15,858 nucleotides of DNA, from positions 1 through 15,858 of the forward strand of contig JAIPFU010000024.1 of the NCBI GenBank assembly GCA_021736505.1. Reading direction: 5' to 3'. The DNA comes from Spirochaetia bacterium. GTDB taxonomy: Bacteria; Spirochaetota; Spirochaetia; PWKH01. The stretch's first letter is position 1; each line of letters begins with the position of its first letter. The notes under the pieces are model-generated. The model ran no database searches. It was not told where the DNA came from and worked only from the letters and a program-made list of their open reading frames with translations. Below are positions 2,661-13,263 of the stretch, piece after piece. The translations under genes and the position numbers were made by a program.

Positions 2661-2801
2661 CTTAATCCTCAGTTGTAAGTCATTTTAATTGCTGTACAAT
2701 AAGAAGTACTACGAACCCTTGATTTTCAAAAAATGCAGAATTATAATTAATTATCAATTCATGATTTTAAACACTTCATTTAAAAAGTAGGCTTGCTTAC
2801 T

Positions 2802-3872
2802 ATGAAAATTGCTGTCAAAAATATCAAACCAAACCCTTTTCGGAATATTGAGAACTATCCTATTGACAGGGAGAAAGTCGAACTATTAAAAGCTAGCATT
2901 AAAGAAACTGATTTTTGGGATAATATTATTGTCCGGAAAAAAGATAATCATTACTTCGAATTAGCGTACGGACATCACCGGCTTGAAGCCCTAAAAGAAC
3001 TTGGCATAAAAGAAATCAATATTCCCGTTAAAGAACTTGATGATGCTCAGATGATCAAGATTATGGCAAACGAAAATTTGGATGAATGGAGACACAATAC
3101 AGCAGTCATAAATGAAACGGTTTTAGCTGCAAAAACTTTTCTGGATGGAGAACTGGCGAAGGATGATAAGCTGGGCACCTCTAATAGCTTTATTAGAGGT
3201 CTATTTGAAAGTCAAAGAGCTTTTGAAACAACCAAGGGTTTAGGAGTTGGTCAGACCACTATACTCAAATTCCTTGGTGGAGCATGGAAACAATATCAAA
3301 TCCAAAGAGCATTGACCTTTATATCTGATGAAAAGATAGCACGGGAAGCCATTGAGATCTTTGAAGAACCAATCCATGCTGAAACATTTAGAGAGCTATG
3401 CAGTTCAAAAACAAACAGAATTTCGGCTAATAACATGCTTTCTTGCACCTTACCAGACTTGTTATTCAATACAAAGGAAGAACAATTAGAGGTAGCAAAA
3501 AACATTAAAAAAAGGTTAGTTGAAACAAATAGGGAAATTACAAGAAATGCTATTCAAGATGAATTCAAAAAAATTATGAATGAAAGAATGGCCACTAAAG
3601 ATGAAGAGTTAGTATTAGGAATGACAGAAGAAGAATTAGTTGATGAATATTTTAGTGGGAAAGCCGAAGATTTGATTTCTCTCCTTCAGAGTTTCACTAA
3701 AAAAGTGAAAAAGTTAAAAAAGGAGATCGCTGAAAATGAACCAACTTATGATAGGGATCTTCTGAAAAAAGAAATATTTTATCCGGTCATAATTGCTCTA
3801 GAAGAAACTGTTAGTGAATGTAATTATGACCTTCTAGATTTATTAAAGAATTGTAGGAGCGAAATGTTATGA
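2802..3872 (+). CDS. ParB/sulfiredoxin-fold nuclease-like protein
   Basis: 356 aa from the ATG at 2802; a TTG at 2793 is in frame but unlikely. Residues 1-95 form a ParB N-terminal domain: KPNPFRN, then the signature YGHHRLEALKELG (57-68), then the NENLDEW segment that matches the ParB box 2 region. The middle (about 105-250) would be the helical, DNA-binding part, and the C-terminus is charged with a likely coiled coil around FTKKVKKLKKEIAE. No ParA partner is present, so a role in plasmid partition is not supported. ParB-fold proteins of this sort also occur in phages and in DNA-modification islands (DpdB-type ATPase/nuclease). The stop overlaps the next ORF as ATGA, which implies translational coupling. 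The ribosome binding site is weak. Confidence 0.8.
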   Translation: MKIAVKNIKPNPFRNIENYPIDREKVELLKASIKETDFWDNIIVRKKDNHYFELAYGHHRLEALKELGIKEINIPVKELDDAQMIKIMANENLDEWRHNTAVINETVLAAKTFLDGELAKDDKLGTSNSFIRGLFESQRAFETTKGLGVGQTTILKFLGGAWKQYQIQRALTFISDEKIAREAIEIFEEPIHAETFRELCSSKTNRISANNMLSCTLPDLLFNTKEEQLEVAKNIKKRLVETNREITRNAIQDEFKKIMNERMATKDEELVLGMTEEELVDEYFSGKAEDLISLLQSFTKKVKKLKKEIAENEPTYDRDLLKKEIFYPVIIALEETVSECNYDLLDLLKNCRSEML

Positions 3873-4194: not shown

Positions 4195-4457
4195 ATGATT
4201 TTAGACACCAAGGGTGGGGCAAAAGTCTTCTCCAAAAAGACTGACAAAAAACTGAGCAATTAGAAGAAACCCAAGGGGAACTTTTCAAGAAAACTGATCA
4301 TCTGCAGTATGACGAGGACGAAGATGACGAAGAAGTGACTGAGGACGATGAGGAGGAGCCTGAGGACGAGGAAGATGAGGAAGAGGATATTGATGACGAT
4401 GAGGATGAAGAAGAGCCTGAGGGCGAAGATTACGATGAAGATAAAGTGAAGTCTTAG
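4195..4457 (+). pseudogene. Frameshifted small acidic protein gene
   Basis: ATG at 4195 opens a frame reading MILDTKGGAKVFSKKTDKKL that stops at 4261. The next frame, without a start, continues smoothly as QLEETQGELFKKTDHLQYDE and then about 40 residues that are nearly all Asp and Glu, ending in KVKS at 4457. One base lost or gained near 4240-4260 would join them into about 86 residues. The two halves echo each other (VFSKKTDKKL and LFKKTDHL), which supports a single original gene. GC content is higher than in the flanks. The Asp/Glu tail suggests a DNA-mimic or chaperone-like acidic protein, but no family is recognised. Confidence 0.45.
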
Positions 4458-4792: not shown

Positions 4793-5779
4793 TTATATAG
4801 GCCAATATACTTTTCTTAAAGGTATTAATGCTTTTCCTTCAGGGTCAAAATTATCATAATTTTGTAAAATTAATTCCACAAGAAAATCTGAATCAATCAA
4901 TGTAATTGGAATATTAGCTCTATCGGCTTCATACTTCGAATCTTTTGTAAAACCTCCACTTGAAAAATAAACACCTTTATCCCCTTGCCGGATACCACCA
5001 ATAAAACTTCTTAAATCTTGTGACCCAATGGTTCCTAGACGATGTTTTACTTCTATTAATATTCTTGGATCTTCTAGTCCTAAGCCATCAGGTGAAGCAA
5101 CAATATCTTTACCTCTATCACTTCCCGCTGGACTAATTCTAGTTTTATAACCCATAGATCGCATAAGAGAAGCTACTAACTCCTGCATTTCTTCCCAATC
5201 TAATTCAAGTATTTTATCCTTAATAAACTCATGTGCTTTTTCTGAAAAATCTTCTTGTATAAGATCTAAATTTTCGTCATCTTCAATGTATTCTTCAGTT
5301 GTTTCACCTGAAATAGCATTTAAAATTTCTTGTTTTGCTGGATTTTGTATTTCAAATATTGATGCTATTGAGCCCAATGAATTCTTTGTTTTTACTGTAA
5401 GATCATCTCTATTGATTTGATTTTGCCATTCAACTTTCCTTAAATGAAAATAAGTTATTAAGTTTTCATCATAATAATAATCTGACTTTATTTTACCCAA
5501 CCAGTAAATACGCTCATTTGGCTTATATGTTATTACATAGTCTTCTATTTTAAATTCTAATGTAAATCGGTATATTTGTCCTGCATTCATATTTCTAGAA
5601 TGTTTTTTGTCATTAGAATAGATTTCTTCATATAATGCTTTTATTTCTTCTAAATTGTTTATATCAGATAGTTCACCTAGGTCATTCCACCCAACTGCTA
5701 TTATCCCATTATCTATAAAATCATCTATTAAGTAAGCTCTTTCTCCTGCTCTAACCATCCACATTCTATTATTATTCAT
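4793..5779 (-). CDS. Mrr-type restriction endonuclease with PUA/EVE-like N-terminal domain
   Basis: 328 aa with AGGAG well placed before the ATG at 5779. Residues 5-120 (MWMVRAGERAYLIDDFIDNG, then IAVGW and a segment with YVITYKPNERIYWLGKI) have the look of a PUA/EVE-like domain, which reads modified bases in type IV restriction systems. Residues 160-190 are an acidic linker. Residues 193-300 are a Mrr_cat nuclease fold: WEEMQELVASLMRSMGY, then GSDRGKDI with Asp225, then LIEVKHR with Glu243 and Lys245 as the D..ExK catalytic set, then SQDLRSFIGGI. The likely job is cutting modified foreign DNA. It stands alone on the minus strand with no methylase beside it, which fits type IV restriction. 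Catalytic residues are seen; the substrate is inferred. Confidence 0.88.
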   Translation of the reverse strand: MNNNRMWMVRAGERAYLIDDFIDNGIIAVGWNDLGELSDINNLEEIKALYEEIYSNDKKHSRNMNAGQIYRFTLEFKIEDYVITYKPNERIYWLGKIKSDYYYDENLITYFHLRKVEWQNQINRDDLTVKTKNSLGSIASIFEIQNPAKQEILNAISGETTEEYIEDDENLDLIQEDFSEKAHEFIKDKILELDWEEMQELVASLMRSMGYKTRISPAGSDRGKDIVASPDGLGLEDPRILIEVKHRLGTIGSQDLRSFIGGIRQGDKGVYFSSGGFTKDSKYEADRANIPITLIDSDFLVELILQNYDNFDPEGKALIPLRKVYWPI

Positions 5780-6034
5780 GTCTTTCTCCTATAATATTAA
5801 CTCTAACAATGATTCTTTTTACCTAATTTCCAAATATTTTAAAAAAAATTACGAGTAAAAACATTCTACTCAACAATTTTAAGGTGATTTTATAAATAAC
5901 ACAAGGTAGTATTACAAAATACAAGTTAATGCTTCATTCAGAAATGATAATGTAAAAGGTATACGGAAAAAATAATACTGACATTATTGTACCAGTTATT
6001 CAAGTTGTAGTTATAATATTTTTAATTATGAAAT
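5780..6034. other. AT-rich upstream region of the restriction gene
   Basis: No gene is seen. It should contain the leftward promoter of the restriction gene, but composition is so AT-rich that no box stands out. Confidence 0.4.
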
Positions 6035-6217
6035 GTACGGATAATTCATTTAGTCTATCAACATCTGTAGAGATCTTTAGGAGAGGGGATTAGGCTACTA
6101 GAAAATCTTAGTTCTAAGGTCTAGAAACAGAGAGATTTTAGGGGGAGGGAAATTGTTGCATAGAGATATTAGGGAAATATATATCTTAGGAATTGAGACC
6201 GGTTTAAAACGTCTTTT
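6035..6217 (+). repeat. Dispersed structured element, copy B
   Basis: Direct-orientation partner of 2473-2660. The first 21 nt from GTACGGATAATTC are identical to copy A, and the next 18 have about three changes. The second shared block is at about 6112-6156 (TTCTAAGGTCTA, then ACAG, a G-rich run, then ATTGTT). The end has AGACCGGTTTAAAACGTCT followed by six T, which looks like a terminator. Together the copies bracket the parB-like, acidic and restriction genes, and copy B sits 253 bp upstream of the tyrosine recombinase. Confidence 0.6.
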
Positions 6218-6469: not shown

Positions 6470-7141
6470 ATGTATCAGAAAGAAAAAATAATTGAATTCC
6501 CAGCTCATACTATTAAGAGTTCACCTAGAAACTCGGCCAGCCGGGAAATCAAATATTTTACTGAATTACAAATTAAGGCTTTACGCCGCGTTACTAAGGA
6601 TGCAAGTGATCTAGCTAGAAATAAGGGACAAGTTACTGGAATTCGGGAATGGATTATTGTTGATGTGTTAACTTGTACAGGAATACGGGTTGCTGAATGT
6701 GCTGATCTTAGATGCGGTGATTTGCATACAGCTTATGGAGAGTCAGAGCTTGTTATAAAAAACGGAAAAGGCAATAAACCCAGAACCGTTCAAATACCTG
6801 AGAGCCTAAAAAAACATATGAAAAGCTATCTCAAATGGAAGAAAACCAAGGGCGAATCGATAACCAACAATAGTTATCTTTTTAAAGGACAGCGTGGACA
6901 AATGACAGTTCAAGCTATTCAACAAATAGTAAAAAAATATTTAAAGAAAATTGATCTATATGAAAATGGCAAATCAGTACATGCCTTGAGACATAGTTAT
7001 GCAGTTGAATATTATAGAAAAACAAAAGATTTACGAGGATTACAGAAGCAGCTTGGTCATAGCAGTATACAAAATACACAGATTTATGCAGATGTAAGTA
7101 AAGAAGATATTCAGAAAAACATAAAAGGGCTGTGGGGGTAA
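6470..7141 (+). CDS. Short tyrosine recombinase (catalytic domain only)
   Basis: 223 aa, against about 300-400 for phage integrases and Xer. The full catalytic set is present: Arg73 in TGIRVAE, Lys100 in NGKGNK, His171 and Arg174 in HALRHS, His197 in LGHSS and the nucleophile Tyr206 in TQIYADVS. The N-terminal core-binding (SAM-like) domain is missing; only about 30 residues precede the catalytic fold. Short enzymes of this architecture include the FimB/FimE inverters, so it may invert or excise DNA locally rather than integrate a large element. It is followed after 3 bp by a ribbon-helix-helix gene, so the two form an operon. The direct repeat pair upstream (2473, 6035) is a candidate substrate. 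Confidence 0.9.
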   Translation: MYQKEKIIEFPAHTIKSSPRNSASREIKYFTELQIKALRRVTKDASDLARNKGQVTGIREWIIVDVLTCTGIRVAECADLRCGDLHTAYGESELVIKNGKGNKPRTVQIPESLKKHMKSYLKWKKTKGESITNNSYLFKGQRGQMTVQAIQQIVKKYLKKIDLYENGKSVHALRHSYAVEYYRKTKDLRGLQKQLGHSSIQNTQIYADVSKEDIQKNIKGLWG

Positions 7142-7144
7142 AAC

Positions 7145-7321
7145 ATGAAAAGAGAACCTGGTCGTAAGACCGTAGGAGCAGCAGTTGATGAAAAACTTTG
7201 GCAAGAATTAAGAATACAGGCTTTTAGGGAAGGAAGAAAAACTGGGCAGTTGTTAGATGATTCAATTAAGTTGTATTTGAATAAAATAAACACTGAATCA
7301 GAAGATATAAAGAAAAATTAA
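7145..7321 (+). CDS. Ribbon-helix-helix (CopG/Arc-like) DNA-binding protein
   Basis: 58 aa, starting 3 bp after the stop of the tyrosine recombinase gene. The sequence runs KTVGAAVDEKLWQELRIQAF and then REGRKTGQLLDDSIKLYL: a short beta strand, helix, GRK turn and second helix, as in Arc/CopG repressors. The C-terminus (NTESEDIKKN) is a short charged tail. Tight coupling suggests it controls the recombinase operon or acts as its directionality factor. A toxin-antitoxin role is less likely because no toxin is adjacent. The fold is read from sequence; the partner role is inferred from spacing. Confidence 0.7.
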   Translation: MKREPGRKTVGAAVDEKLWQELRIQAFREGRKTGQLLDDSIKLYLNKINTESEDIKKN

Positions 7322-7346: not shown

Positions 7347-7763
7347 ATGAAAACTTATAAAAAAGAACTTTGGATGAATACACGACAGAGACGTCAATTG
7401 ATTAATATCACAGAAGATGTTGAAAAATGCTTACAAGAAAGTAGTATTAAAGAAGGTTTAATTCTTATTAACGCTATGCATATTACTGCTAGCGTTTTTA
7501 TCAATGATGATGAGCCTGGGCTTCATCAGGATTATGAAGAATGGCTGGAGCGTCTTGCACCGGAAAAACCCCACAGCCAGTATCGCCATAATGGATTTGA
7601 GGATAATGCGGATGCTCATATGAAACGCCAGATAATGGGACGTGAAGTAGTTGTGGCTATTACGGAAGGTAAATTAGATTTCGGGCCATGGGAACAGATA
7701 TTCTATGGTGAATTTGATGGAAAAAGGAAAAAAAGAATATTGGTGAAAATCATTGGAGAATAA
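7347..7763 (+). CDS. yjbQ: YjbQ family protein (UPF0047), element-borne copy
   Basis: 138 aa, the usual full length, with AAAGGAG 7 nt before the ATG. Family hallmarks are present: [34 protein letters not shown] (40s-50s, including His45), the H..NG..DNADAH region (81-91) and the C-terminal [18 protein letters not shown]. The Escherichia coli member has weak thiamine-phosphate synthase activity and the family is annotated as a secondary thiamine-phosphate synthase, but its main role is unsettled. It lies between the ribbon-helix-helix gene and the serine recombinase (15-bp gap), an odd place for a housekeeping gene. The first 42 residues are about 76% identical (32 of 42 by my count) to the cut resident yjbQ at 9331-9456. 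Its second half has higher GC than its first half and than its neighbours. Confidence 0.92.
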
Positions 7764-7778
7764 TGGGGAAAATCAATA

Positions 7779-9356
7779 ATGTCCTTACGTTTTGCACCAT
7801 TAATCAGAGTATCAACTGAAACTCAAGCAGACAAAGGAGAATCACTACGAACACAAATGATGCAAATCCAACAATATGTAAAATCATTGAATGGTAATAT
7901 TCCAGAAAACTGTTTGAGATATGCGGGACAAGAACATGCTACACCAGAACTTGAAAGAAAAAAGCTGGATCAATTGCTTGAAGATTCTAGTAAAAATAAA
8001 TTCGATGCAGTAATTGTTTGTGATACTAGTAGATGGTCTAGGGATAATTTAAAATCCAAAGAAGGGTTAAATATTCTTCGAAACAATGGTATCAGGTTTT
8101 TTGTGGGAACAATGGAATATGATTTGTTTAATCCAGAACACAACTTTATATTAGGCATGAGTGCAGAAGTTGGAGAATTACAAGCTAGGCAACAATCGTT
8201 AAAATCCATAACAAATCGAATCGAGAGAGCAAGAAGAGGAATCCCTACAAGTGGTAAACTACCATATGGAAGAATATTCGATAAAAAAGATCAGCAGTGG
8301 AAGATTGATCAGCAAAAAAAGAAAAACATACAATGGGCGGCAGAACAATATTTAAACGGAAAGTCAATCGTTGAAATAGCAAAAGTGTTGGACATGAATT
8401 TTTCAAATCTCTGGACAATATTAACAAAAAGATCTGGAAAAAAGTGGGAATGTAGGTTCCGCGCTACTAAACTCAATATTGATGAAACGGTGGTTATTCA
8501 TGTTCCACCTTTACTTGATAACGAAACTATACAAGCCATAAAAGAACAGGGAGAAGCAAACAAAACTTATCATCATGGAAGTATAAAACATCAATATCTA
8601 TTATCTAGAATGGTATTTTGCAAGCATTGTGGATACTCTTTATCGGCACAAACAAACCATAATGGGAAACAATACTTTAGACATCCAAAACATCGTAAAA
8701 ATACATGCTCAGTTAAGAATTGGATTCCTGCTGAACCATTAGGAGAAGCAGTTTTAACCACTTTATTTCAAATGTTTGGTGATGAAGAAAGAATAGAAAA
8801 GGCCATTCGAAAAGCAACACCTGACATAGAAAAGATTCAAGGTATGCAAGAAGAACTTGAAGACCTTAGAAACAAGAAAAAAGAAGCAATACAGCAAAGA
8901 GAACGGCTTATTAAGCTTACAGCTAAAGGAACATTAACAGAGCAGGAAGTGACAGAGCAAATAATGGATATTAGGGATCGGATACAAACGATAGAAACCC
9001 GTATTGATCATCTTGAACTACAAGTTTCAAACCAACCAAACTCGGCAGAAATTAAAAAAAAATCAAAGTTAGCAAGATCAGTACTTATTCATACGTTTAA
9101 AAATCCTGGTCCAAAAACTATAGAAAAATTCCTGAATGCTTCTTTTGAAAAAAAAAGAAATTTAATCGAACGAGCTTTTTCAGGCAAAGATTCTCAAGGC
9201 AATAGACTAGGAGTTTATGTTGAACAAACAGATGATTTAAAAAGCCCGTGGAAATTTGAAATCAGAGCTATTTTAAATAATGTTGTAGAATTATTTGCAG
9301 ATGAGAACATTAATACTAATTTTGCTTTGTATTCACCAGGACAAGCCCCTCCTTGA
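7779..9356 (+). CDS. Large serine recombinase (site-specific integrase)
   Basis: 525 aa. The resolvase domain at residues 5-150 has the catalytic serine, Ser12, in IRVST, plus DTSRWSRDN and an ERARRGI helix. The Recombinase domain follows at about 165-270 with LPYGRIF near its start. A zinc ribbon begins at Cys281 (CKHCGYSLS) with a later Cys in KNTCSV. A long coiled coil (about 350-410) lies within the C-terminal domain. This is the layout of phage and ICE integrases that join attP and attB without accessory proteins. A GGGG element lies about 11 nt upstream of the ATG. The last seven codons (SPGQAPP) and the stop come from the antisense of the resident yjbQ, so the coding frame crosses the right attachment junction at 9330/9331. 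The native C-terminus in the free element must differ. Confidence 0.94.
9322..9340. other. Right attachment junction of the element in yjbQ
   Basis: Reading leftwards, the resident yjbQ frame is family-like up to Val41-Asn42 (codon AAT ending at 9331), then becomes ACA AAG CAA AAT TAG. The crossover is therefore at or within a few bases of 9330/9331. The exact two-base core cannot be read without the other junction. Confidence 0.6.
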
Positions 9357-9456
9357 TGCCGCTCTCCCGCAGACATTTCTCTACATCCTTCGTAATATTA
9401 ATCAGTTCGCGCCGTTTTTTCGTATGCATCCATAACTCTTTCTTATACGATTTCAT
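9331..9456 (-). pseudogene. yjbQ: Resident yjbQ, 5' stub of 42 codons cut by the element
   Basis: The minus strand from the ATG at 9456, preceded by AAAGGAG, encodes [18 protein letters not shown] and on to [12 protein letters not shown], a clear YjbQ N-terminus. The family next requires AMHITAS, but the frame instead reads TKQN and a stop at 9316. The stub is in the GC-rich style of the right flank, so it is the original chromosomal gene. Its own ribosome binding site is intact, so a 46-residue dead peptide may still be made. The complete copy at 7347-7763 presumably supplies the function. Confidence 0.85.
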
Positions 9457-9850: not shown

Positions 9851-11680
9851 ATGTCAAAAAAGATTGGAAGAAATGATCCGTGCCCCTGCGGGAGCGGGAA
9901 GAAGTACAAAAAGTGCTGTCTGAACAAAAAGGGAGCAGGAATATACAACTATTCAGGGAGCGGTTCTGAAAGCGGCGCAGGAAACGGACTTCAGGTTTCA
10001 TCAGTGCAGGCATCCTCCATTCATGCTTCCTCTGCTAATGGTTTAAACGCACATGACACGCAGCCGGTATATGAAGACGAAGACGGTTTATTCATTCGGG
10101 AGCTGAGCAATTTTGACCTGCATATCATCCTGAATATGGCCGGCTTAAGAAGTCGGGAAGAGCTTTCCCAAGCCTACAATGAATACAGAGACTACGTCGA
10201 AACAATTACAGCTCAGCCGGGATTGATCACAGAAGATCTCCCCAGTTTCATAGAATACCTCCGTCTCGGTCGGGACGAAACCCGCAGCCTCCTGACATCT
10301 TTCCGACGAGAGCTTAGAATCCGTAGAATCTCCACCCAGGAGGAGCTCGACAGCTTCTACGAAGAGTTCGCTGCCGAGCGCAATCTGAAACCGACCATAA
10401 AAAACACAAACCTCGGCCTTTCTCAGGCTCAGATGAAACAGGTCATCGAAAGTGACTTCAGCGAACTCCAGGGAATTGTCAAACTCTCCGATGACCTGAA
10501 CGACAATGATGTCATTGAGGCCCCATTCATCAAAAGGCTCCTCATTCTCACGGACCTGTTCCGTAGAAACAACGGCCGTCTGGAGATAACAGCGGCAGGC
10601 AACCTGCGTCCGAAATACGTTAATGAGATCAAAAAGCACTTCTCCAGCCCCAACCCATTCGGCAGTTTCGGCAGCTTTTTCGGCGGAAACTCTAATCAGG
10701 AATCCAGTTCTCCTGAAATCAGCATCCTCAAGAATTTTCTCATTGACAGAAACTATGTCAAAAAAATGAAAACAATCCTCCGCCTCGACGAGAAGAAATG
10801 GAGCCCCTCCGAAGAAGGTTTCCTTGCCGAGGTCTACCGCGAGCTTCTGTTCTACTGCCTCGATTCATATGACTGGATCTCCAGCATCCGCAACCCGACC
10901 ACAAACACAGACAAACTGCGTTTCATCCAGAAAACTGCAGCTGCATCTCTGCTGATGCTGAAGCAGCTGCCGGCTTATTTCATCTCTCCAAGTGAACTTT
11001 ATCGCAATTTCTGTCTTATATTCCCCCACTTCGACCAGCATCTCAAACCCACTGACGACAATACGACCGATAACCGTAAAACTAAAGAACCGACGCCGCA
11101 TCCCACCCACGCCTCAAAAACGACAACCTCGCTTTCATCGAAACTGAACTACACCCTGGACTTCGGCATTGATTTGAATAATACTACTGAAAAGGCTGCT
11201 CCTTCTGCTGAAGCCGATGCTGCCCCGGATCCTGCTGCTATTGATGATCCGTCCGCCCTTCTTGGCAACGCTGATGACCAATCCAGCCACCCTGACAACT
11301 CTGAAGAGCAGATTCCCAATGAGCAGGAATCCTCAAACGGTAACTATGCCTACCGCGACATCTTCATTGAATTTTTCGCCTTCAACGCCGGCCTCCTAGA
11401 GCGACAAAATAAAGTCGCCCTCGAAGAAATCATGAAAGAATCGGAACTGAACACCTACCCCACACCCGTTGATTCGGAACCCGAACCATACAAGCAAATT
11501 AACACAGCACCCACCCCCAAATCAGAAGCAAGAAGCAGCCCTCAAAGTAAGAAATACAGTCCAACTGCTGAGGAAACGGATGAAGAGGACGATTCAATCC
11601 GTAGGATGCTCAATCTCTTATCCTCTATAACTCCTAAAGAGTACAGGGTCACTCCCCTCTTCCATCGACTCTTCCGCTGA
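9851..11680 (+). CDS. SEC-C zinc-motif protein, long paralogue
   Basis: 609 aa. The N-terminus IGRNDPCPCGSGKKYKKCC is a complete SEC-C motif with zinc ligands Cys11, Cys13, Cys22 and Cys23; in SecA this motif binds SecB and ribosomes. A Gly/Ser-rich linker (30-70) follows. Residues 90-265 form a helical conserved region that ends with NNGRLEITAAGNLRPKYVNE, a winged-helix-like pattern also seen in other large SEC-C proteins. Residues about 395-480 and 530-580 are low complexity (Pro, Thr, Ala, Asp, Ser), and the end is EYRVTPLFHRLFR. It is paralogous to the next gene; the low-complexity inserts account for most of the length difference. The role is unknown; SEC-C points to contact with ribosome, translocase or nucleic acid. 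The AAGGAAG upstream of the start is modest. Confidence 0.88.
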   Translation: MSKKIGRNDPCPCGSGKKYKKCCLNKKGAGIYNYSGSGSESGAGNGLQVSSVQASSIHASSANGLNAHDTQPVYEDEDGLFIRELSNFDLHIILNMAGLRSREELSQAYNEYRDYVETITAQPGLITEDLPSFIEYLRLGRDETRSLLTSFRRELRIRRISTQEELDSFYEEFAAERNLKPTIKNTNLGLSQAQMKQVIESDFSELQGIVKLSDDLNDNDVIEAPFIKRLLILTDLFRRNNGRLEITAAGNLRPKYVNEIKKHFSSPNPFGSFGSFFGGNSNQESSSPEISILKNFLIDRNYVKKMKTILRLDEKKWSPSEEGFLAEVYRELLFYCLDSYDWISSIRNPTTNTDKLRFIQKTAAASLLMLKQLPAYFISPSELYRNFCLIFPHFDQHLKPTDDNTTDNRKTKEPTPHPTHASKTTTSLSSKLNYTLDFGIDLNNTTEKAAPSAEADAAPDPAAIDDPSALLGNADDQSSHPDNSEEQIPNEQESSNGNYAYRDIFIEFFAFNAGLLERQNKVALEEIMKESELNTYPTPVDSEPEPYKQINTAPTPKSEARSSPQSKKYSPTAEETDEEDDSIRRMLNLLSSITPKEYRVTPLFHRLFR

Positions 11681-11720
11681 TTCGCCAAGTACATATCGCA
11701 TTGTTCTATTCTGCCTCATT

Positions 11721-11736
11721 TTTCGCAGCTGCGAAA
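11721..11736. promoter_or_regulatory. 16-bp perfect palindrome
   Basis: TTTCGCAG and CTGCGAAA meet with no spacer, 41 bp after the stop of the first SEC-C gene and about 25 bp upstream of the promoter of the second. It could be a dimeric regulator site or the core of a terminator; no T tract follows, so an operator is somewhat more likely. Confidence 0.4.
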
Positions 11737-11760
11737 TCTCCCGCGCCCGCCCACCGCCGG

Positions 11761-11789
11761 GTGACGTATGATCTGATTTCCAGTATAAT
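11761..11789 (+). promoter_or_regulatory. Promoter for the second SEC-C gene
   Basis: GTGACG (11761-11766) and a perfect TATAAT (11784-11789) are 17 bp apart. The resulting leader would be about 100 nt, so the two paralogues are probably transcribed separately as well as in line. Confidence 0.5.
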
Positions 11790-11895
11790 TCATATATGAA
11801 GCAGCTGTGATGCGCTTTACATAAACAACTTCAGGGAATATGCAGATCAAAAGCGGGAAAGCGACTGGCCGAGAGCCGGAAATCAGGAGTAATTG

Positions 11896-13263
11896 ATGTC
11901 AAAAAAGATTGGAAGAAATGATCCGTGCCCCTGCGGAAGCGGAAAGAAATACAAGCACTGCTGCATGGATAAGGATAAAAAAAATTCGAATATTTCTCAG
12001 TTCCCGAACAGCGACAGCAGAAATGGGCAGAGCGGCTCGTCTCAGAGCGCTCCGGATAATCCTGATATGCAGCGGCTGCTCGACATGTTCGGCTTCAGCA
12101 GCCAGGAGGAGATGGATCGTTCCTTGAAAGACTACGGGGAATGGGCGGAGAAAACGTCGTCACAGCCCGGTATGCAGGGACAGAACATACCCTCATTTTC
12201 GGAATTCAGCGGCAGGGGAGCAAACCTCGCCACAAAGACGCTGAAAGAAATATCCGGACGCCTTTCAGAAATGGAGTTCTCCTCCAAGGAGGAGGCTGAT
12301 GCATTTCTCAATCAGTTTAATAAGGAGCACAACAGCTCGCCGCTAGATAGCTTCCTGGGGCTCAGCCCCGATCAGATGGGGAAACTTCTGCACTCGGACT
12401 TGATCGACCTCCAGGGTGATCTTGTCAGACTGAATGAGAAACTGCAGGTAAGTGATGTCGTCGAAGCTCCTATGCTGAAGAAGCTTCGGTATCTCTTCGA
12501 TATGTTCAAAGAAAACGGAGGGCGCCTGCCGCTCACCCAGGGGGGCTACCTGCGGCCTGTGTACGTAAAGCAGTATCATAAGCATTTTTATGGTGAAGAC
12601 CCCTTACACACATGGGTCAAGCAGGAAAATCAAGTCAAAGACCTGGTTTTTCTCAGAAATTTTCTTACTGAGTTTGACTTAATCAATAAGCGGGTAACCT
12701 TTATGGAACTTGGCGACAAAACGCAGGCTTACATAGATAAGGGCGAATGGAGCTTATTTTATATTCTGATACTTTTTCATCTGATTGATAATATATCGTG
12801 GAGTTTCTTTCTGCCGCCTCGGATTGCTGAAATTGAGGAAATGGAGTTTATTCAGAACAGTGCGCTGTTTTCGCTGTTTATGATGAAAAAGAAGGCCGTC
12901 AATTTCATTTCTCAGCAGAAGATTTACGATTACTTCATTACAGCTTTTCCGTATTATGATCCGATACAGAATTCTGAGCTCTTTGATAACGATTCAAAGG
13001 GAAGGTATTCTGATGTCCCTGTTTTCAATATGTACAAAATATCTTACTTGAATCTTTTTCTTGATTTTTTCGCTACTGAGGCAGGACTGCTTGAGGAACG
13101 CAAGCGAGAAATCAAGGATGATTCCAATTCTGCAGATATGAGCAGCGGGCAAGATATATCTCTGGAAACTCTCACTGCCGATGGGAAACGGGTATACAAG
13201 GAGTACCGCATCACGCCTCTGTTCAAGAAACTTTTCATCTGGTTCGATGATCCTGACTTCTGA
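11896..13263 (+). CDS. SEC-C zinc-motif protein, short paralogue
   Basis: 455 aa from the ATG at 11896 with AGGAG 6 nt upstream; a TTG three bases earlier is in frame but not needed. The SEC-C motif is complete (Cys11, Cys13, Cys22, Cys23). Order as in the paralogue: Ser/Asn/Gln-rich linker (28-50), a helical region with FGFSSQEEMDRSLKDYGEWA, then LSPDQMGKLLHSDLIDLQG, VVEAPMLKKLRYLFDMF, and ENGGRLPLTQGGYLRPVYV as the winged-helix-like segment. The C-terminus EYRITPLFKKLFIW matches the end of the long paralogue. The first 41 nt of the two genes are identical although much of the rest has diverged. No partner gene suggests a pathway. Confidence 0.88.
   Translation: MSKKIGRNDPCPCGSGKKYKHCCMDKDKKNSNISQFPNSDSRNGQSGSSQSAPDNPDMQRLLDMFGFSSQEEMDRSLKDYGEWAEKTSSQPGMQGQNIPSFSEFSGRGANLATKTLKEISGRLSEMEFSSKEEADAFLNQFNKEHNSSPLDSFLGLSPDQMGKLLHSDLIDLQGDLVRLNEKLQVSDVVEAPMLKKLRYLFDMFKENGGRLPLTQGGYLRPVYVKQYHKHFYGEDPLHTWVKQENQVKDLVFLRNFLTEFDLINKRVTFMELGDKTQAYIDKGEWSLFYILILFHLIDNISWSFFLPPRIAEIEEMEFIQNSALFSLFMMKKKAVNFISQQKIYDYFITAFPYYDPIQNSELFDNDSKGRYSDVPVFNMYKISYLNLFLDFFATEAGLLEERKREIKDDSNSADMSSGQDISLETLTADGKRVYKEYRITPLFKKLFIWFDDPDF

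Follow-up and report, generated by a model that had tools for sequence, protein, structure and literature searches.

Serine-integrase islands that interrupt yjbQ at codon 42 and carry a separate full-length yjbQ as a putative replacement

A contig assigned to a Spirochaetia bacterium (assembly GCA_021736505.1, contig JAIPFU010000024.1) raises the question of why a complete yjbQ gene should precede a serine recombinase gene whose 3' end runs into the remnant of a second yjbQ. The whole stretch analyzed, 15,858 nucleotides in length, is referred to here as the window. It very probably represents one end of a serine-integrase island for which the codon-42 region of yjbQ serves as attB and which carries a separate, full replacement yjbQ. 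The following features were annotated in the window.

2793..3872, plus strand: ParB-N domain protein, probable element cargo (PF02195, E 1.1e-10; low-GC part of the window)
4793..5779, minus strand: Mrr-type restriction endonuclease, probable element cargo (PF04471, E 9.2e-24; low-GC part of the window)
6470..7141, plus strand: tyrosine recombinase, 223 aa, a third gene that recurs in the integration module (PF00589, E 1.7e-27)
7145..7321, plus strand: 58-aa ORF separating the tyrosine recombinase gene from yjbQ, by eye resembling ribbon-helix-helix proteins (ORF reading; no Pfam match)
7347..7763, plus strand: complete element-borne yjbQ, putative replacement copy, 138 aa (PF01894, E 1.1e-37; NCBIfam TIGR00149 YjbQ, 120.7 bits against a cut-off of 67.75)
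7779..9356, plus strand: large serine recombinase (integrase), 525 aa (Resolvase and Zn_ribbon_recom domains)
9310..9331, plus strand: element-side att arm (P' half-site) adjoining the recombinase 3' end (from its position and its resemblance to the attP arms reconstituted for relatives)
9332..9333, no strand assigned: crossover core, TT on the plus strand and AA on the yjbQ sense strand, the first 2 bases of the Asn42 codon (junctions of 12 paired elements; empty-site comparison)
9334..9456, minus strand: codons 1 to 41 of the split resident yjbQ, its N-terminal half (tblastn, E 3e-19 at 74% identity; L001 and 8 other loci are arranged alike)

The preliminary description of this DNA had placed a complete yjbQ 15 bp 5' of the recombinase gene, which was borne out by both family matches and by the coordinates (7347 to 7763, with the recombinase starting at 7779); the closest solved relative of the encoded protein was TM0723 (1vmj, E 5e-69). 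A 42-codon yjbQ stub, about 76% identical to the full copy over 42 residues, had also been described as ending exactly at the end of the recombinase gene. The stub, its coordinates, and its similarity (74% in tblastn over 43 codons) held, but the break was located at 9332-9333: from 9456 to the core at 9333/9332, the minus-strand stub comprised 41 codons plus the AA of codon 42, and the recombinase ORF ran 23 bp beyond the core into the host side, so that its last 7 codons are antisense yjbQ. GC content in 1-kb windows was 0.26 to 0.37 between about 1500 and 9500, 0.43 to 0.52 beyond 9500, and 0.39 to 0.40 in the first 2 kb, a profile that marks the right-hand side as host-like and the low-GC part as island-like. 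The C-terminal half of the resident yjbQ was not found within the window (tblastn), and no second att arm there scored near the known one (best other, 10.3 versus 15.8, under a model built in part on the known arm itself); the island's far end therefore lies off the 15.9-kb contig or was lost.

Several other features of the window were recorded. The ParB and Mrr genes are flanked by direct repeats (47 nt, 85%; 44 nt, 73%) separated by about 3.57 kb (2463-2573 and 6025-6148), perhaps the ends of a cargo module. An acidic repeat region, rich in GAT/GAG with 21- to 30-nt spacing, lies within the island (4310-4438). On the host flank, two tandem SEC-C motif proteins (9851-13263), with 77-bp starts that are 87% identical to each other, represent a duplication.

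Comparison with a related genome bearing an empty yjbQ site had been proposed, and such a genome was found for an element in a relative of a Desulfosarcina genome, though not for the window itself. Seven gene products of the window had no match in 36 spirochaete loci (most covering only 1.5 kb to each side of yjbQ), and for its SEC-C gene the matches, in 7 of 296 genomes, were all distant (24 to 29%). Among 60 relatives of the Desulfosarcina genome G005 (itself included), 38 matched this yjbQ subfamily at E 1e-30, and two of these, G005 and G047, also showed a C-terminal half. Genome G047 (locus L091) contained, in order, the N-terminal half, an 8,696-bp island, and the C-terminal half, whereas G052 (L067) contained one intact yjbQ between flanks matching those of L091 (left, 95.1% over 1,479 bp; right, 93.0% over 1,508 bp). 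The L091 N-terminal half was 96% identical to the G052 gene up to the AA of codon 42 and 23% identical beyond it; the C-terminal half was 20% identical before the AA and 96% identical after it. The breakpoints of this pair had exactly AA in common, the start of the Asn42 codon. GC content was 0.485 in the island and 0.625 in its left flank. The left flank match ended 150 bp before the start codon in L091 and 22 bp before that in L067, leaving about 130 bp extra in L091. This sequence just upstream of the split gene (L091:2649-2798) was absent from G052, and 135 bp of it recurred at 90% in L061/L090; it is perhaps a small interspersed repeat.

Two further comparisons pointed the same way. The L005 left flank was found directly upstream of an intact yjbQ in G029 (84%, small gap), with the right flank matching the same G029 region at 85 to 89% but about 6.6 kb from the gene, and L007 had a more distant empty-site match on both sides (L181, 68 to 73%). 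From these comparisons, the stub marks the ancestral locus, and the full copy is part of the island. The spare yjbQ of L091 was 79% identical to the G052 gene, which makes it no recent local duplicate. The proposal that yjbQ is the attB of an element bringing its own full copy was thus upheld by complete elements with both halves and by the L091 empty site with its 93 to 95% flanks. The two outcomes named beforehand as speaking against it, a stub without an element and an ancestral full copy, did not occur, the stub being ancestral in L091, L005, and L007 (lower identity).

Both junctions were available for 12 elements, 6 on one contig and 6 joining two contigs of one assembly. With the junctions aligned at that position, AA was present at both in all 12; the shared block was exactly AA in 7 and ranged from 2 to 8 bp, and yjbQ sequence was lost at the core on both sides. 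This AA begins the Asn codon in the motif NAMHIT. Reconstituted attP sites formed a dyad centered on AA, with a mean of 11.4 of 18 arm pairs versus 3.2 to 5.8 at 16 other offsets, although the AA dyad was not unique in 3 of 12 elements (L005, 8 versus 9 elsewhere; L015 and L021, ties at 8); attB was less symmetric (7.3). A 2-bp crossover core was thereby centered in attP and attB, as in large serine integrases. The target frame was not rebuilt at either junction, unlike in elements with replacement sequence in attP (icd, tRNA, dusA). The integrase would thus recombine attP with attB at the AA that opens the Asn42 codon of the host yjbQ, splitting the gene into an N-terminal and a C-terminal half that would each end in element sequence. 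Since the halves seen in relatives end in this way, attP does not rebuild the target, as it does in most gene-inserting elements.

Read in the direction of the integrase gene, the core was TT in elements adjoining the N-terminal half and AA in those adjoining the C-terminal half. With attP nearly symmetric, the core should set the orientation of insertion, and, by the rules for serine integrases, either orientation could arise if the AA/TT core of this near-palindrome were inverted with respect to the integrase gene. In a tree built from 25 recombinase sequences, 5 changes were needed to account for the N-side label, at least 3 of them forced by well-supported branches, so that orientation has switched repeatedly; the window recombinase was sister to that of a Spirochaetae metagenome-assembled genome (MAG) (L001). 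Insertion in both orientations, as indicated by these junctions, is a new point.

The distribution of such loci was examined by a protein search for close recombinases, an alignment of 32 of these, and a profile scan of one genome per species, which gave 26 loci with related recombinases, 3 of them fragments only. A search for relatives with a yjbQ stub at the element edge had been suggested as a check, and a yjbQ half was present at or near the recombinase end in 16 of the 26 loci (16 of the 23 with a near-complete recombinase). Nine had the N-terminal half read towards the recombinase, as in the window (L001, L004, L008, L009, L012, L014, L015, L019, and L021), and seven had the C-terminal half read away from it (L002, L005, L006, L007, L010, L020, and L023). 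The recombinase end was not at yjbQ in the other seven (L003, L011, L013, L016, L017, L018, and L022). Host records of the yjbQ-targeting loci carried eight phylum names, some of them coarse MAG names: Spirochaetota, Thermodesulfobacteriota, Bacteroidota, Planctomycetota, Lentisphaerota, Pseudomonadota, Myxococcota, and Candidatus Tharpellota. The recombinase was rare among the relatives searched, with matches at E 1e-60 in only 13 of 1,179 (7/389, 3/393, and 3/397), most of which were already in the set.

The N-terminal resolvase catalytic domain (PF00239) was detected in all 32 family members, with Ser12 in at least 90% of alignment rows; by analogy with S12 of phiC31, which is named in the main text of PMC12884075, this residue is the putative nucleophile. 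A recombinase domain, a zinc ribbon, and a coiled coil were present C-terminal to the resolvase domain, although PF07508 could hardly be detected (in 3 of 32 members, at E up to 1), and the recombinase model matched serine integrases.

Family members at other sites provided several side observations. The recombinase end was at a universal-stress-protein ORF in L016, and in a Bacteroidales locus (L011:10175-10550) the recombinase adjoined the C-terminal part of dprA, with an intact yjbQ elsewhere in the genome, a target switch within the family. Related serine recombinases ended at or inside opposite-strand phage capsid genes in L018:4965-6503 (minus strand) and L022:8001-8600 (minus strand), an arrangement suggesting that serine-integrase elements have entered prophage capsid genes. 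In L003:10001-14326, a recombinase frame without a stop ran into an Eco57I-like methylase (restriction-modification), giving an ORF of about 1,440 codons. Tyrosine and serine recombinases lay beside a cytochrome b-like gene (by eye) in L221, and its 7-kb contig contained no yjbQ.

No relatives of the recombinase or of YjbQ were found in viral contigs (three scans). Six plasmid records matched the recombinase, all at 27% identity or less, and all 51 plasmid and 3 phage records matching YjbQ were below 60% identity. A Pfam scan of 20 element ORFs, a subset of all, found no conjugation genes and no capsid or tail genes, the one virion-related match being a DNA-packaging gp3-like protein in L008/L120. 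Six single-contig elements measured 8.4 to 11.7 kb, which is small for a phage.

The pairing of yjbQ with the integrase gene, proposed from the window, was seen in six elements but is one of several layouts and not a rule. In the window, L001, L005, L008, L010, and L091, yjbQ ended 3 to 31 bp before the recombinase as called, on the same strand, and a tyrosine recombinase lay upstream in five of these six (all except L010). Separately, a short Xer-like tyrosine recombinase preceded the serine recombinase in the same orientation in the window, L001, L005, L091, L008, L007, and L003. The full yjbQ was at the far end, about 45 to 70 bp before the C-terminal half, in L012 and in G014, G015, G019, and G021 (each joining two contigs), near the N-terminal half in L007, and 2.3 kb before a C-terminal half in G004. 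That the spare yjbQ can sit at either element end, judging from the assembled loci, is a new point. The operon-like spacing in six elements could be taken to mean that YjbQ itself works in recombination, for instance as a co-opted directionality factor, and the directionality factors of serine integrases are varied proteins. That reading is nevertheless very unlikely, as yjbQ was at the far end in L007, L012, and the four two-contig cases, the protein remains an ordinary host-like YjbQ, and none of 10 related recombinases at other targets had yjbQ, even where the tyrosine-serine module was kept (L221).

The absence of yjbQ from those loci was also compared with its frequency at the target itself. 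Full yjbQ was present on the same contig in 8 of 18 yjbQ-targeting loci versus 0 of 10 related loci elsewhere (Fisher, P = 0.014, with two-contig cases scored as without yjbQ and the 10 loci including L013, L017, L222, and L223, which had no assigned target). This difference fits replacement and speaks against YjbQ as a general recombination factor. Across 13 loci, the 900 bp past the recombinase were also compared with the upstream part for copies of other targets: none was found in the 10 loci without yjbQ, apart from weak, low-identity L018 matches, with L005 and L001 positive and L002 negative as controls.

Seventeen genomes with an interrupted yjbQ were considered (G001, G002, G004 to G010, G012, G014, G015, G019 to G021, G023, and G047), and 13 of them contained a full yjbQ of the subfamily. 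In 11, it was the sole subfamily copy and was linked to the element; G015 had two, and the one in G020 was not linked to an element seen. The four genomes without a full copy (G002, G006, G009, and G023) had contigs ending 2.4 to 5.7 kb upstream of the recombinase. Outside the 17, G016 contained an N-terminal half and a second yjbQ start running off a 9.4-kb contig, on which there was neither a full copy nor a recombinase. For the 13 elements whose carried yjbQ was read, every frame was free of internal stops. Each island would thus bring a separate complete yjbQ, in the window directly upstream of the integrase gene, and after insertion this copy, usually the only full subfamily copy in the genome, would presumably supply the enzyme and make the host dependent on the island. 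From the intact copy kept in 13 of 17 genomes and the lack of yjbQ at the 10 related loci elsewhere, we infer that the carried copy compensates for a costly loss of yjbQ and rescues host fitness. Distant UPF0047 paralogues (24 to 38% identical), present in 15 of 16 such genomes searched (the exception being G009), might cover the YjbQ function, a form of redundancy. A passage of PMC5613172 lists YjbQ as an alternative to ThiE for making thiamine, and the islands offer comparative evidence that loss of this protein, with a poorly defined physiological role, is costly.

Phylogeny of YjbQ (92 columns, poorly resolved) allowed a further reading, passive capture, in which a host yjbQ was picked up by recombination at or near the att site and persists as neutral baggage. 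The 13 element rows required 13 changes in the tree and were scattered among host lineages, which implies that copies were exchanged with hosts, and some grouped with the resident C-terminal half of their own genome (for example, L096 with that of G004, 98% support). Against this reading, the frames were open in 13 elements across phyla, the carried gene was the only full copy in 11 genomes, and it was missing from all 10 related loci at other sites; two copies also had a changed att core codon, one of them with its differences concentrated there. Passive capture is accordingly considered improbable beside replacement.

If the carried copy replaces the resident gene, its own att sequence becomes of interest. 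Codon 42 was Asn in all 108 full yjbQ genes called resident, two of which were second records of element copies, and in 11 of 13 element copies, the others having Ser (G019) and Cys (G004) (2/13 versus 0/108, P = 0.011). The resident set was compiled after dropping second records of the same copy, scar genes, and L025, and it still included the two second records just mentioned (L053 and L054) and six copies with no link to an element; these eight were dropped in two later resistance tests (residents, n = 100 and n = 89), and L133, which lacks the motif, was left out of the profile test, giving 107. The conserved His of NAMHIT was Asn (NAMNIT) in 8 of the 108 resident genes, L133 among them, and in scar genes L199 to L201; all of these genes are perhaps element derived. 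The G004 element copy was 95% identical to its resident N-terminal half upstream and 94% downstream, but 10 of 15 bases differed in the core-spanning block.

When each element copy was compared with its own resident half, the arm upstream of the core was less conserved on the N side than in matched resident pairs (9 to 11 of 13 pairs below the median; z from -2.7 to -3.1, values that are approximate given the relatedness of the 13 pairs, the two-contig origin of six of them, and the trial of four arm lengths). No effect was seen on the C side (8 pairs; z = -0.7 and -0.1). Against a general attB-arm profile, element copies were not clearly poorer sites than residents (arm B, -3.84 versus -3.28; arm B', -0.88 versus -3.43, the better score being that of the element copies). 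In a separate test, element copies did not differ from N-terminal halves (P = 0.22 and 0.11), whereas they did differ from residents (P = 0.004 and 0.003). As the profile test was unclear, the case for resistance rests on the own-pair test, the two changed core codons, and G004. The G004 and G019 copies are likely resistant to their integrase, and their altered cores should prevent self-integration; resistance as a general rule for carried copies is unproven.

Traces of turnover were found in further loci. Spirochaete loci L198 to L201 contained a full yjbQ followed about 0.7 to 0.85 kb later by a C-terminal fragment, with no recombinase match on the stretch, and the fragment was preceded by a typical attP arm in L198 and L199. 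Recombination between the N-terminal half and the element copy would leave such scars. A BrnT/BrnA-like toxin-antitoxin pair (by eye) lay between the full yjbQ and the fragment in L198. Genome G001 contained two further C-terminal halves about 5 kb apart, and L012 contained two N-terminal halves 1.7 kb apart, arrays that are as expected if later elements enter earlier replacement copies. Together, the scars and arrays suggest repeated rounds of insertion.

These observations can be drawn together in a tentative account, possible rather than probable, in which the islands act as break-and-replace drives. Under this account, the resident yjbQ is destroyed at the hardly changeable Asn42 and a resistant copy (with Asn42 changed in two cases) is supplied, so that the host becomes addicted, and gene conversion keeps the rest of the copy host-like. 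Successive elements would invade earlier copies, leaving nested arrays and scars, and an element-derived yjbQ may come to be the resident gene. Regulated gene integrity, in which the insertion would be a reversible switch that keeps yjbQ off until excision restores it, is extremely unlikely by comparison. The target is truly broken and attP lacks repair sequence, as in the switches described in the main text of PMC10111431, but with a full open copy arriving on the element there is no obvious loss of function. Moreover, stops were present in the C-terminal halves of G001 and G019, and the scars keep a full copy beside the C-terminal fragment.

No report of yjbQ as an integration target, or of such a serine-integrase family, was found in the literature searched; a yjbQ case could be contained in Mageeney 2020 (NAR 48:4052), which is reportedly a search for islands encoding a homologue of their own target. 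The word yjbQ was absent from the main texts (supplements aside) of PMC10083194, PMC4482086, PMC10111431, PMC12884075, and PMC12424338. The islands name hosts in which yjbQ can be tested and provide new serine integrases with a defined, deeply conserved attB.

The satellite 11capE bears on the carried homologue, and its integrase is presumably of the tyrosine type. As presented in the main text of PMC10111431, 11capE is a helper-embedded PICI that disrupts a phage capsid gene, has a capsid gene of its own, and shows differences at the att region. It thus resembles the yjbQ islands in breaking a gene while bearing a homologue of it and differs in that its target is a phage late gene, not a host metabolic gene, and its identity block is 10 bp instead of 2; the word serine does not occur in that main text, which mentions no serine integrase. 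Its authors interpret this arrangement as regulated gene integrity that serves the satellite. An element with a homologue of its own target has therefore already been described, and the earlier remark that no pairing of YjbQ with its own integrase was known stands for the literature searched, but not for that broader idea.

According to the same main text (PMC10111431), attP usually carries replacement sequence, and exceptions are usually switches; unlike most gene-inserting elements, the yjbQ islands do not rebuild the gene and very probably do not use it as a switch. The dusA-associated islands, as described in the main text of PMC4482086, similarly occupy one site in a conserved housekeeping gene in many bacteria, but they replace the dusA 5' end and rebuild one hybrid gene, whereas yjbQ islands leave the gene split and bring a full copy separately. 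The integrases share with phiC31, Bxb1, and TP901-1 a similar fold, simple attP and attB sites, and a 2-bp core at the dyad center and are distinguished by the yjbQ target, the linked replacement gene, and the barely detectable PF07508. The islands also offer a natural parallel to engineered Cleave-and-Rescue/TARE drives, which, as outlined in summaries of those systems, inactivate an essential gene while supplying a recoded version that cannot be cleaved. Those drives are nuclease based, designed, and intended for sexual populations, whereas the yjbQ islands use a natural bacterial integrase and show clear recoding in few copies.
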